Assembly (NCBI RefSeq): GCF_000337095.1
Contig: NZ_AOIV01000037.1
Span: 110,010 to 161,724, forward strand
Source of the DNA: Halogeometricum pallidum JCM 14848
Lineage (GTDB): Archaea > Halobacteriota > Halobacteria > Halobacteriales > Haloferacaceae
Length of the DNA: 51,715 bases
Direction: 5' to 3'
In this document: piece after piece, positions 10,927-51,715 of the stretch
How the letters are laid out: every line of letters begins with the position of its first letter
How positions within the stretch are numbered: position 1 is the stretch's first letter
Position numbers and translations under genes: made by a program
The notes under the pieces: model-generated
What the model saw: the letters and a program-made list of their open reading frames with translations, nothing else
Databases searched by the model: none
Told to the model about the DNA's origin: nothing

Positions 10927-11083
10927 GCCTCTCGGTTGACGCCTCGCTAGCTTAAGGGTAGTTGCCGGACGGAGTGACTGTCCGCGATTCGAGAGACGTC
11001 TCCCGGTTTCGGGTCGTTTTCTGCCGGTCAGAATGGTCAAACTGCCGCCAGGTTTTTCACCATCGTCCTCGAGAGACTCCACG

Positions 11084-14000
11084 ATGTTTGATGAATTAAA
11101 TAATCGCTCGTCATCGGAGCTGCGCAGACGCGAGTTCGTCGGCGGCATCACGTCGCTGGCGGCGGCCTCCGCGTTCTCGGTGGGCGTCTCCGAGTCGGCC
11201 GCGGCGCAGGTGACAGCCGGGGCCGACGAACCCGGTCAGACGCTGACGTCGCCCGACGGGGCCGTCGAGGTGTCGGTGGACGTGACGGACGGCGCGCCGA
11301 GTTACTCGGTGTCGCGCGAGGGGACGACGGTCATCGAAGAGTCGTCGCTCGGATTCGAGTTCGAGAATCAGGCGCCGTTCGGGGACGGTATCGAGGTGAC
11401 CGGGACGGAACGCTCCAGCGTCGACGAGCGATGGACGCCGGTGTGGGACCAGTACGACGAGATACCGGAGCGATACGAGGAACTCCGGGTCGGCCTCCGG
11501 GAGACGGCGGAACCGAACCGGTCGCTGACGCTCGAACTGCGCGCGTTCGACGACGGGGTGGGTCTCCGGTACGTGTTCCCCGCCGAGAGCGGGTTCGGCG
11601 ACTTCGTCGTCGCCTCCGAGAACACGGCGTTCGCCTTCGCGGACGACTACAACTCCTGGTGGGTAGAGAACGACTTCAACAGCTACGAGTACGCCTACGA
11701 GGAGACGCCGCTGAGCGACATCGGCGAACTGAGTTCGTTCGGCGGGGCGCACACGCCCCTGACGATGAAGGCGGCCGAGGACCTCTATCTCAGCGTTCAC
11801 GAGGCGAACCTCGTCGACTACGCGGCGATGGCCGTCGAACCGACCGAAGACGGCGGCGGGACGACGTTCGAGTCCGTCCTCGCTCCGCTTCCCGACGGGA
11901 CGAAGGTGACCGCGTCCGCGCCGCACCGGACGCCCTGGCGGACGGTGCAACTCGCCACGCGGCCGGGCGAACTCGTGGAATCGAACCTCGTTCTCAACCT
12001 GAACGAACCGTTCGACCCCGAGTCGTTCCCGGAGGGGACCGACTGGATAGAACCGGGGAAGTTCGTCGGCATCTGGTGGCTGATGATAACGGGCCGCGCG
12101 GACTGGGAGTACCTGGGTCCGGAGACGGGCAATCACGGCGCGCAGACCGGCCGGATGAAGCGGTACATGGATTTCGCCAGCGAGCACGGGATTCGGAGCG
12201 TCCTCGTCGAGGGGTGGAACGAGGGGTGGGACAGCTATCCCGGTGAAGGGGACACGATGGACTTCGACGACCCGTACCCCGACTTCGACTGGGAGGGGGT
12301 GACGGAGTACGGCCTGAACCTCGACCCGCCGGTTGAGATGACCGCGCACAACGAGACGGCCGGGAACGTCTCCAACTACGAGTCGCAGTTGGACAACTCC
12401 CCGAATCCGTTCGCCGACTACGAGAAGAGGGGAATTCGGTCGATAAAGACCGGCTACGTCGCTGACTCCGGCGTCACCATCGACGGGGAGACGTACAATC
12501 ACCACTGCCAGCCGTTGGTGAATCACCACCACCTCGTCTACCGCGAGGCGGCCGAGCACCGACAGATGCTGGAGGTGCACGAACCCATCAAACCGACCGG
12601 AGAGCGACGAACGTACCCGAACGTGATGACCCGCGAGGGGGTGCTCGGACAGGAGTACGACTCGTTCGGCTACGTCAGCCCCGACCACCACGTCACGTTC
12701 CCGTTCACGCGGATGCTCGGCGGCCCCGTCGAGTACACGCCCGGCATCTTCGACATGAACTCGGGGTCCGGCGGCATCGAGACGACGCGCGCGAAGCAAC
12801 TGGCGATGTACCCGACGTACTTCAGCGGCCTGCAGATGGTCGCGGACCTGCCGAGTTCCTATCTGGCCGAGCAGAATTCGAGGCTCGATGTCGGCGACGT
12901 GGCGCAGGCGGAGTTCGGCGAACGCGACGGCCTCTCGCGCGCCGCGCGATGGGCGAACGCGCAGGGCGGCCGCTACGTCCCGTTCGACCCGAACACGGTC
13001 GACTCGGGGGCGAGTCTGTCGTGGACCGTCGAGGACGTGCCCGCGGCGGGCGAGTACGACGTGCACCTCCGGTACGCCAGCGACGCCGAGGAGAACGCCG
13101 TCGCCGCCGATACGCCGCGAACGGCCACCGTCGCCGTCGGCGACTCTTCGACCCGAGTGACGCTCCCGCCCACGGGGTACTGGGACGAGTGGGCGACGAC
13201 GACGGCGACGCTCCCGTTCGCCGAGGGGGAGAACGACCTCTCCGTGACGCTCGCCGAGGACGACACGGGCGGATTCAACCTCGACGCCGTCGCCGTCACC
13301 GAGACGGGGGCGCCGACGCCGACGCCCGAGGAGGACCCGACGCTCGGTCCGACGGTGTCCGAGTTCGAGTTCGTCGAGGACGTGCCCGCCGCCGGGTGGG
13401 ACGACACGAACGTCCTCGACGCCGAAATCGGCGAGTACACGCTCACCGCCCGGCGAAAGGGCGAGGAGTGGTACGTCGGCGCGATGACCGGCGCCGACGG
13501 ACGTGCGCTGGACGTGCCGCTGGAGTTCCTCGCGCCCGGCGAGAGCGGTGACTCACCGGGTAAGGGCGGGGACGCGCCCGGAAAGAGCGGTGATTCCTCG
13601 GGGAAGAGCGAAGACGCGCCGGGCAAAAGCGACGAGAACGGAAAATCGAACGACACGCCGCGCGGCCCGATGTACGTCGCGGAGATGTACTCCGACGCCG
13701 CGGACGCCGCCTACGAGTCGAACCTCGCGGCCGTCCGCGTCGACGAGTTCCTCGTGGACCCGAGCGCGACAGTGCTCGCGTCGATGGTCGAGTCGGGCGG
13801 GACGGCGATTCGCCTGCGGCCGCCGGAGGGCAGCGAGGCCGACGACCTGCCGAGGTACGAGCGACCCGAGCAGGACGTGAACGTCGCCATCGCCTCGGAG
13901 ACGTTCGTCAAGTCGACGTTCGTCACCGCCACCGGTTCGAACTCGGGCGACTACGTCGGCGGGACGACGGCGGAGGTGGTCGTCGACGGCGAGGTGGCCT

Positions 14001-14851
14001 CCACCGCGAACGTCCGCTTCCCGCCGAACTCCTCGGAACAGTCGTACACGTTCTCGTTCACCGTCGACAACCCGGGCACGTACGACGTGGCGGTCCGGAC
14101 CCTCGACGGGGACGTGCTCGCGCGTCGGACGGTGACGGTGAAACCGCCCGTCGAGGTGGCCGCCTTCGATGACCCCGCCGGCGACGACGCCGGCCCCGGG
14201 GTCTACACTTACCCCACCAACGAGGCGTTCGAGGAGGGGGCGTTCGACCTCCGGTCGTTCGCCGTCTCGCAGACGTCGGACGTCTACGAGTTCGAGTTCG
14301 AGGTGGCGAACCTGTACGACGCCTTCGGGAGTTCGCGCGGGTTCTCCCCGCACATGTTCGTGCTGTGGGTCCGCGACCCGAGCGCCGACGGCGGGCGAAC
14401 CGACAGCCTCGACGACCTCGGGGCGAACGTCGCGTTCGAGGCGCCGTGGCACTACCGACTGGAGGTGAGCGGCTTCACGAAGAGCGTCGTCGACGCCTCC
14501 GGGTCGCCCCTGACGACCGATGACGGGGGCGCCGTGACGCTGGCCGAGAGCGTCGACGCAGAGGAGGGGACGGTGACGCTCACCCTTGACGAGGACGCCT
14601 TCGGCGACGTCGACGCGGCCGAGTTGGCGGTCGTTCCGATGGTTCAATCGGAGGATAGGGGATCGCTCCGGCCGGTCGCGGAGACGACGGAGGCGTACGT
14701 CTTCGGCGGCGCGAAGGCCGGCGCCGTCGAGCAGGCACCGCTCGTGATGGACCTCGTGACCGGCGAGGGAGTCGACCAGTCGACGGCGCTATCGTACTCG
14801 GTCGAGGAGTCGGCGACGCTGCCGTTCGTCTCGCTCGGCGGAAGCGACTGA
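11084..14851 (+). CDS. Secreted multi-module GH97 alpha-glucosidase
   Basis: A 1,255-residue Tat-exported protein (SELRRREFVGG then a short hydrophobic stretch, residues 11-42). Residues about 45-325 are the GH97 N-terminal sandwich and about 326-600 the TIM barrel, with VEGWNEGW (375-382), SIKTGYV (453-459) and EVHEPIKPTGERRTYPN (497-513). Gly457 where retaining members have an Asp nucleophile, together with the HE pair at 499-500, points to the inverting SusB-like group. A galactose-binding-fold module (about 606-742) precedes the GH97 C-domain (about 755-915), which is interrupted by a Gly/Ser/Lys repeat linker (818-860). An Ig-like domain (about 925-1020) and a glucodextranase C-like domain (about 1022-1250) follow. 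ATG 11084 is chosen because it puts the RR motif near the N-terminus. Confidence 0.85.
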   Translation: MFDELNNRSSSELRRREFVGGITSLAAASAFSVGVSESAAAQVTAGADEPGQTLTSPDGAVEVSVDVTDGAPSYSVSREGTTVIEESSLGFEFENQAPFGDGIEVTGTERSSVDERWTPVWDQYDEIPERYEELRVGLRETAEPNRSLTLELRAFDDGVGLRYVFPAESGFGDFVVASENTAFAFADDYNSWWVENDFNSYEYAYEETPLSDIGELSSFGGAHTPLTMKAAEDLYLSVHEANLVDYAAMAVEPTEDGGGTTFESVLAPLPDGTKVTASAPHRTPWRTVQLATRPGELVESNLVLNLNEPFDPESFPEGTDWIEPGKFVGIWWLMITGRADWEYLGPETGNHGAQTGRMKRYMDFASEHGIRSVLVEGWNEGWDSYPGEGDTMDFDDPYPDFDWEGVTEYGLNLDPPVEMTAHNETAGNVSNYESQLDNSPNPFADYEKRGIRSIKTGYVADSGVTIDGETYNHHCQPLVNHHHLVYREAAEHRQMLEVHEPIKPTGERRTYPNVMTREGVLGQEYDSFGYVSPDHHVTFPFTRMLGGPVEYTPGIFDMNSGSGGIETTRAKQLAMYPTYFSGLQMVADLPSSYLAEQNSRLDVGDVAQAEFGERDGLSRAARWANAQGGRYVPFDPNTVDSGASLSWTVEDVPAAGEYDVHLRYASDAEENAVAADTPRTATVAVGDSSTRVTLPPTGYWDEWATTTATLPFAEGENDLSVTLAEDDTGGFNLDAVAVTETGAPTPTPEEDPTLGPTVSEFEFVEDVPAAGWDDTNVLDAEIGEYTLTARRKGEEWYVGAMTGADGRALDVPLEFLAPGESGDSPGKGGDAPGKSGDSSGKSEDAPGKSDENGKSNDTPRGPMYVAEMYSDAADAAYESNLAAVRVDEFLVDPSATVLASMVESGGTAIRLRPPEGSEADDLPRYERPEQDVNVAIASETFVKSTFVTATGSNSGDYVGGTTAEVVVDGEVASTANVRFPPNSSEQSYTFSFTVDNPGTYDVAVRTLDGDVLARRTVTVKPPVEVAAFDDPAGDDAGPGVYTYPTNEAFEEGAFDLRSFAVSQTSDVYEFEFEVANLYDAFGSSRGFSPHMFVLWVRDPSADGGRTDSLDDLGANVAFEAPWHYRLEVSGFTKSVVDASGSPLTTDDGGAVTLAESVDAEEGTVTLTLDEDAFGDVDAAELAVVPMVQSEDRGSLRPVAETTEAYVFGGAKAGAVEQAPLVMDLVTGEGVDQSTALSYSVEESATLPFVSLGGSD

Positions 14852-48456: not shown

Positions 48457-49752
48457 TTACGGTTCCGACGCTTCCCCCTCGAACGCCGCCGCCAGCCGGT
48501 CTCGCATGTGCGCCCGGCGGAGTTGCCTCGCGCGCGCGTCCGAGAGGTAGCTGTGGAGGACGACCTCAGCGCTCGAACTCCCCTGTTCGGCGGCTATCTC
48601 GTCTAAACTCCCGAGGACGACGTCGAGCGAGGAGGAGTACGCGTCGTACCAGAAGCGCCGCCCCAACTTCGGAGAGGTGGAGACGCCGTCGACGGCGTCG
48701 GGGAGGCCGGCCCGGTCGCTCAGTCGCTCGAACCGCTTCCAGACGGTCCACCGGGAGACGTGCTCGCGCGAGGCGTGCGGCGACGGGAACAGGTAGCCGT
48801 TCCAGTCGTCCTCTCGTTCGCGGGCGGCGAGGTGCGATTCGAGTTCCTCCCGACCGTACAGCAGCGACACCTCCCCGGGACCGTTCTTTCGCTCCCGGAA
48901 GTCGATGAACGGCACGTCCCCGTCGTCGACGTCGAGGACGAACTGCTCGGCGGACAGGCCGGCGACTTCGTTCGGCCGGAGCCCCCACGCGCACAGCGCC
49001 AGCACGAGGAGTCGCCCCTCGGAATCGGCCGCGGTTCGATACAGCGAGCGGACGTGCGACGGCGTCAGACACGGCGTGTCGCCGTCGGCGTCGCCCCCCG
49101 AGTCGGTCGACCAGTCGAACTCCTCGTCGAGGCCGTCCGCCGGGTTCACGGCCGCCCACTTCCGCCGGACCAGGTGCGCGTACCAGTTCTCGACGGCGAG
49201 GTGGATGCGCCGCTTCGTTCGACCGCCGTCGAGTTCGTCGTGTAGGCGGTCGAACGCGGCCCAGCAGGCGTCCACGGCCTCGTGCGCCGGCGCGTCGCCG
49301 TCGCGGGCCACCGGGCTGAGCAGGTCGTCCGTCCCGTTCGCGTCCCCGTACGCCCGGACGTAGCGGTTCAGCCGGTACCGGAGGGTGTCGATCGAGGAGT
49401 CTGCGAGCCCTTTCCGGTCCCGCCGCGACGTCAGAAACGACTCCAGCGCGTCGACGGTTCGCTCGTCTCCGGTCGCCCACTTGGGCCCCTGGGCCGGCGG
49501 TTCGAGACCCAGATCGTCGCGCCAGAACTGCTCGAACGTCCGGTCGTGGTACTCCCTGAGCGCGTACAGGAGCGGCCGAAAGCCGTGCTCTCGAAGCCAC
49601 CGATGCGTCGGTTTCTCCGCGCGCGGGTCCCCCCCGTCCGCCTCGAACGCGGGCGCGACGACGGTCCAGTACGCCTCGGTCAACTCCTCGACGTCGAGGA
49701 GCGTCCAGGAGACGTCCGCGGCGCGTTCGGCCGAACCGTCCGTCTCAGCCAC
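48457..49752 (-). CDS. Tyrosine recombinase-like protein with degenerate active site
   Basis: A 431-residue haloarchaeal integrase-like protein. A long N-terminal extension (about 1-85) precedes a SAM-like core-binding domain (about 90-205) and a catalytic domain (about 225-410). Box I Arg259 lies in LCAWGLRPNEVAGL and the beta-hairpin Lys289 in FRERKNGPGE. The box II H-x-x-R is replaced by Lys362-x-x-Arg365 (PKLGRRFWYD), and where active enzymes have LGHSS this one has EQGSSS, so the second His/Trp is lost. Tyr402 in LHSYLSD could be the nucleophile. It begins with GTG. It may be inactive or a DNA-binding relic. An AT-rich hairpin region lies just upstream. Confidence 0.75.
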   Translation of the reverse strand: MAETDGSAERAADVSWTLLDVEELTEAYWTVVAPAFEADGGDPRAEKPTHRWLREHGFRPLLYALREYHDRTFEQFWRDDLGLEPPAQGPKWATGDERTVDALESFLTSRRDRKGLADSSIDTLRYRLNRYVRAYGDANGTDDLLSPVARDGDAPAHEAVDACWAAFDRLHDELDGGRTKRRIHLAVENWYAHLVRRKWAAVNPADGLDEEFDWSTDSGGDADGDTPCLTPSHVRSLYRTAADSEGRLLVLALCAWGLRPNEVAGLSAEQFVLDVDDGDVPFIDFRERKNGPGEVSLLYGREELESHLAAREREDDWNGYLFPSPHASREHVSRWTVWKRFERLSDRAGLPDAVDGVSTSPKLGRRFWYDAYSSSLDVVLGSLDEIAAEQGSSSAEVVLHSYLSDARARQLRRAHMRDRLAAAFEGEASEP

Positions 49753-51236: not shown

Positions 51237-51419
51237 TGACTGTTGACCCTTTTTCGAGCGAGCGCTTTACCGTCTCGGAATCCGCTCGCAGTCGCCGACG
51301 CGGGAGCGACCGCCGAACACGTCGCGCACCCGAACGGTTATGCGGGCTTCCCCCGTGACTCGCGGACGCACGATGAGATTCGATGACACACCGACCGACC
51401 GGGGGAGTCCGTAGTGGGG

Positions 51420-51688
51420 ATGCCTCTCTCGTCAGTCTCTGCGGCGTGGGTCGCAGAGGCCGGCGAGTCGATGGGGTTCGACCTCTCGGACGAGGACGCG
51501 GAGCGGTTCGCCCGCGGCGTGAACGACGAGATAGACGGGTACGCCGCACTCGACGAACTCGCGCCGGCGGACGCCGCGGAGTCGATAGCCGTGCGCGACG
51601 TTCGCGCGCCGGTCGAGGAGGAGGACCCGCACAACGCCTACATCACGGCGTTCACGGCGGAGGAAGACGCCGACGGTCCCCTCTCCGA
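51420..51688 (+). CDS. N-terminal fragment of an amidase-signature family protein
   Basis: The first 89 or so residues of a protein cut by the end of the genomic sequence. LSSVSAAWVAEAGESMGFDL is followed by an acidic helical stretch, then EEDPHNAYITAFTAEEDADG and DGPLS. In amidase-signature enzymes of haloarchaea the order DPHNA, then DGPL, then G-x-x-V-x-x-KD precedes the Ser-cisSer-Lys triad, so the catalytic core lies beyond the window. Codons past 51688 read through adapter and are not real. The ATG at 51420 is used; an in-frame GTG lies two codons upstream. Confidence 0.7.
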
Positions 51689-51715
51689 CTGTCTCTTATA
51701 CACATCTCTGATGGC
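51689..51715. other. Sequencing adapter (Nextera transposon end), not genomic
   Basis: Bases 51689-51707 are exactly the 19-base Tn5 mosaic end CTGTCTCTTATACACATCT used in Nextera libraries. The eight further bases CTGATGGC match the start of the reverse complement of the original Epicentre 454-style Nextera adapter (ending GCCATCAG on its own strand). The window therefore ends in untrimmed adapter at a contig edge. Confidence 0.95.

Follow-up and report, generated by a model that had tools for sequence, protein, structure and literature searches.

The window, meaning the whole stretch of 51,715 nucleotides analysed here, covers C37:110010-161724 and so forms the right-hand end of this contig in a 45-contig haloarchaeal draft genome of 4.38 Mb. 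On the forward strand, positions 11033-14851 encode a 1272-aa protein in which GH97 domains (N, catalytic and C) are combined with a weak CBM6 match and a glucodextranase C-terminal module. On the reverse strand, positions 48457-49752 encode a 431-aa protein that adjoins an MFS transporter gene and shows a weak match to Phage_integrase (E 3e-4, below the Pfam cut-off). This protein may be a diverged tyrosine recombinase. No Rfam families were found in the window. Near its right edge lies the genuine 5' part of an amidase gene (51414-51688, forward strand, ~91 aa), which is cut by the contig end. The edge itself reads ...GGTCCCCTCTCCGA, CTGTCTCTTATACACATCT and CTGATGGC in immediate succession.

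The second of these blocks, at 51689-51707 on the reverse strand, is the exact reverse complement of AGATGTGTATAAGAGACAG, the 19-base Tn5/Nextera mosaic end. The initial annotation had described it as an exact mosaic end, and the comparison gave 0 mismatches. No second mosaic-end match was found in the window, even when up to three mismatches were allowed (shuffle mean 0.01). The third block, CTGATGGC, follows directly at 51708-51715, also on the reverse strand, and is the reverse complement of ...GCCATCAG. The adapter had been said to close the contig, and it does so, as C37 stops at 161724 and position 51715 is its true end.

The reading frame at 51414-51713 translates into ...DADGPLS followed by DCLLYTSLM, and the latter part is encoded by the adaptor. 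The 91 residues encoded by 51414-51688 end in DGPLS and share 86% identity with the N-terminal part of an intact 612-aa homologue from a related genome (G011), which matches Amidase PF01425 at positions 38-445 and lacks the adaptor. The coding sequence is taken up again at base 2 of contig C38, from where 383 aa are open to a stop (frame 2) and match positions 86-445 of PF01425. The earlier proposals that the amidase gene is interrupted after DGPLS and that any peptide past 51688 is an artefact are thus both correct, since the homologue and C38 continue differently from DCLLYTSLM. In the alignment to the G011 locus, C37 reaches base 1771 and C38 starts at 1881, leaving ~109 bases missing. Judged by the G011 homologue, this stretch includes the KDN motif, whose lysine is the catalytic one in the amidase signature family. 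From the Ser-cisSer-Lys motif, GGSSSGSAAAV is present in C38 and the Lys (KDN) position falls inside the missing stretch. Because the contig terminates in adaptor, these bases between C37 and C38 are absent from the assembly; a search for the stretch elsewhere in the assembly found no further copy, the four matches being paralogues at 45-60% identity. Scanning the 91-aa fragment against Pfam gave no match, because the Amidase match of the G011 protein starts only at residue 174, near the PLSG motif at which the fragment in the window stops. Compared with PF01425, the window holds the N-terminal part only, which precedes the domain match. The two pieces together correspond to the G011 protein, C37 to its N-terminus and C38 to the later profile positions, and the middle is missing.

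A real truncated pseudogene, with which the adaptor merely coincides, would also account for an amidase gene that lies in two pieces while its homologue is intact elsewhere. The pieces, however, occupy two contig ends, each is open in frame up to the end, and against the homologue they are collinear, lacking the ~109 bases, which makes a pseudogene very unlikely. The interrupted amidase gene is real, with its 5' part ending C37 and its 3' part opening C38. The advice to trim the adapter from the contig end is sound as regards the adapter, which is confirmed, but the last base that had been called genomic (51688, forward strand) is also untrustworthy. It is an A, whereas the codon in the intact homologue is GGC (Gly), and Gly also follows PL-x (PLxG) in three paralogues of the same genome. 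A strain difference or an end-of-read error could explain this, and the base should be regarded as doubtful.

The assembly contains 27 mosaic ends (25 exact and 2 with one base given as N), that is, 26 in addition to the window copy. Sixteen of the 27 lie within ~20 bases of a contig end; the 11 others are internal, and each of these has a single N within 20 bases. The flanking DNA differs at each copy, and several copies extend into more adaptor sequence. In C4, C11, C20 and C24, two facing copies surround a single N; for C11, a congener (G004) shows ordinary sequence in place of the two facing adaptors at the join. Internal adaptor scars therefore exist besides the terminal ones. Such scars near single Ns were located in the same assembly (G000) at C4:9048-9113, C11:132256-132308, C20:8205-8243 and C24:115067-115111, with further ones at C23:57542, C36:5426 and C41:118958. 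The genes at internal scars are likely broken by the same adaptor artefact. A chance match of archaeal genomic DNA to the adaptor has a practically negligible probability, as only ~3e-5 exact 19-mers would be expected in the 4.38-Mb genome (uniform bases) against the 27 found, and a control with the reversed pattern gave 0 matches in the assembly.

A genome_contigs search matched the exact 27-mer to at least 120 stretches from other public drafts. The matches listed come from drafts of organisms unrelated to one another, for the most part haloarchaea with AO-prefix accessions and Streptomyces/Actinoplanes. In the loci retrieved from these stretches, 125 occurrences were classed by what comes after the 27-mer, and 124 of them follow the 38-base adaptor up to the point where the contig ends, an N intervenes or more kit sequence begins. 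The occurrences stop at the end of the retrieved sequence in 46 cases and at an N in 55, while 23 carry the full 38-base adaptor, then mostly further kit sequence or Ns. One occurrence shows 34 adaptor bases and then other DNA. In Natrialba aegyptia contig_15 (L068), the adaptor passes from 4731 directly into other DNA, with neither an N nor a contig end, and is built into the contig without a gap mark. The same 27-base adaptor lies near the stretch end in two IMG/VR viral contigs (L159, 6942-6968; L160, 11125-11151); contamination has therefore passed into derived collections.

Within the window's own family, the mosaic end is present in 12 of 148 assemblies, 11 with 18-34 copies and one with a single copy. 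It is absent from the 136 others, among them the four remaining assemblies of the genus. This distribution reflects sequencing batches, not lineage. Chance matching was rejected on the copies in the assembly, the stretches found elsewhere and the distribution in the family; nothing was found in its favour. The mosaic end derives from the ends of Tn5, and repeats do break contigs, so that a natural Tn5-like transposon end, with the contig broken at a repeated element, might be imagined here. The mosaic end is, however, an engineered hybrid, the bases beyond it are a kit primer tail and match neither IS50 nor a transposase gene, other copies continue with more of the kit's sequence, and the family distribution goes by assembly and not by lineage. 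A natural transposon end at this site is accordingly highly improbable, and the presence in these genomes of a natural mobile element with the mosaic end is hardly conceivable. A study of 59 haloarchaeal drafts states that its libraries were made with Epicentre Nextera (PMC4230888), and the present genome may have been part of that study. A first literature search on haloarchaeal Nextera drafts with adapter problems returned nothing relevant.

The final 27 bases are almost certainly an untrimmed adaptor of a first-generation (Epicentre) Nextera library. This identification follows from their sequence, their place at the contig end, their recurrence both at other ends and joins of this assembly and in drafts of unrelated organisms, and the fact that the gene carries on in a different contig. 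No evidence against it was found. During tagmentation, which puts the mosaic end and tail on every fragment end, the transposase would have joined them to genomic DNA that stops at 51688. Sequencing of fragments below the read length would then have run on into the adaptor, and if the reads were left untrimmed, the assembler may have closed the contig with adaptor bases for want of other reads across the site. The terminal bases are an artefact without biological novelty, and their significance is one of data hygiene only. The adaptor adds nine false residues to a predicted protein and marks the point at which an amidase is divided between two contigs. With its many copies in this assembly and its wide occurrence in old Nextera drafts, it can create spurious k-mers common to unrelated genomes, and such k-mers are possible in derived collections too.

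The generation of the adaptor can be read from its tail. Adaptor 1 (...GCCTCCCTCGCGCCATCAG), the mosaic end and the name of the Epicentre kit are all given in the paper on the Botryllus genome (PMC3699833). All 8 available tail bases match the reverse complement of this old adaptor, in which ...GCCTCCCTCGCGCCATCAG stands directly 5' of the mosaic end, in agreement with the initial annotation, which had recognised eight bases of the original 454-style adapter. Elsewhere in the assembly, contig ends and joins show longer adaptor-1 tails, CTGATGGCGCGAGG(GAGGC) and CTGATGGCGCGAGGGAGG. The adaptor-2 tail (CCCGCTCAG, CTGAGC...) is also present at some assembly sites, showing that both adaptor types occur. 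Current Illumina Nextera adaptors consist of the mosaic end with GACGCTGC... or CCGAGCCC...; the 19-base mosaic end is common to both generations, but the tail CTGATGGC fits neither current tail. Compared with the mosaic end and adaptor 1 of the first-generation Epicentre kit, all 27 bases are identical and other contigs continue identically; the one difference is that the contig stops after the first 8 of the 19 tail bases.
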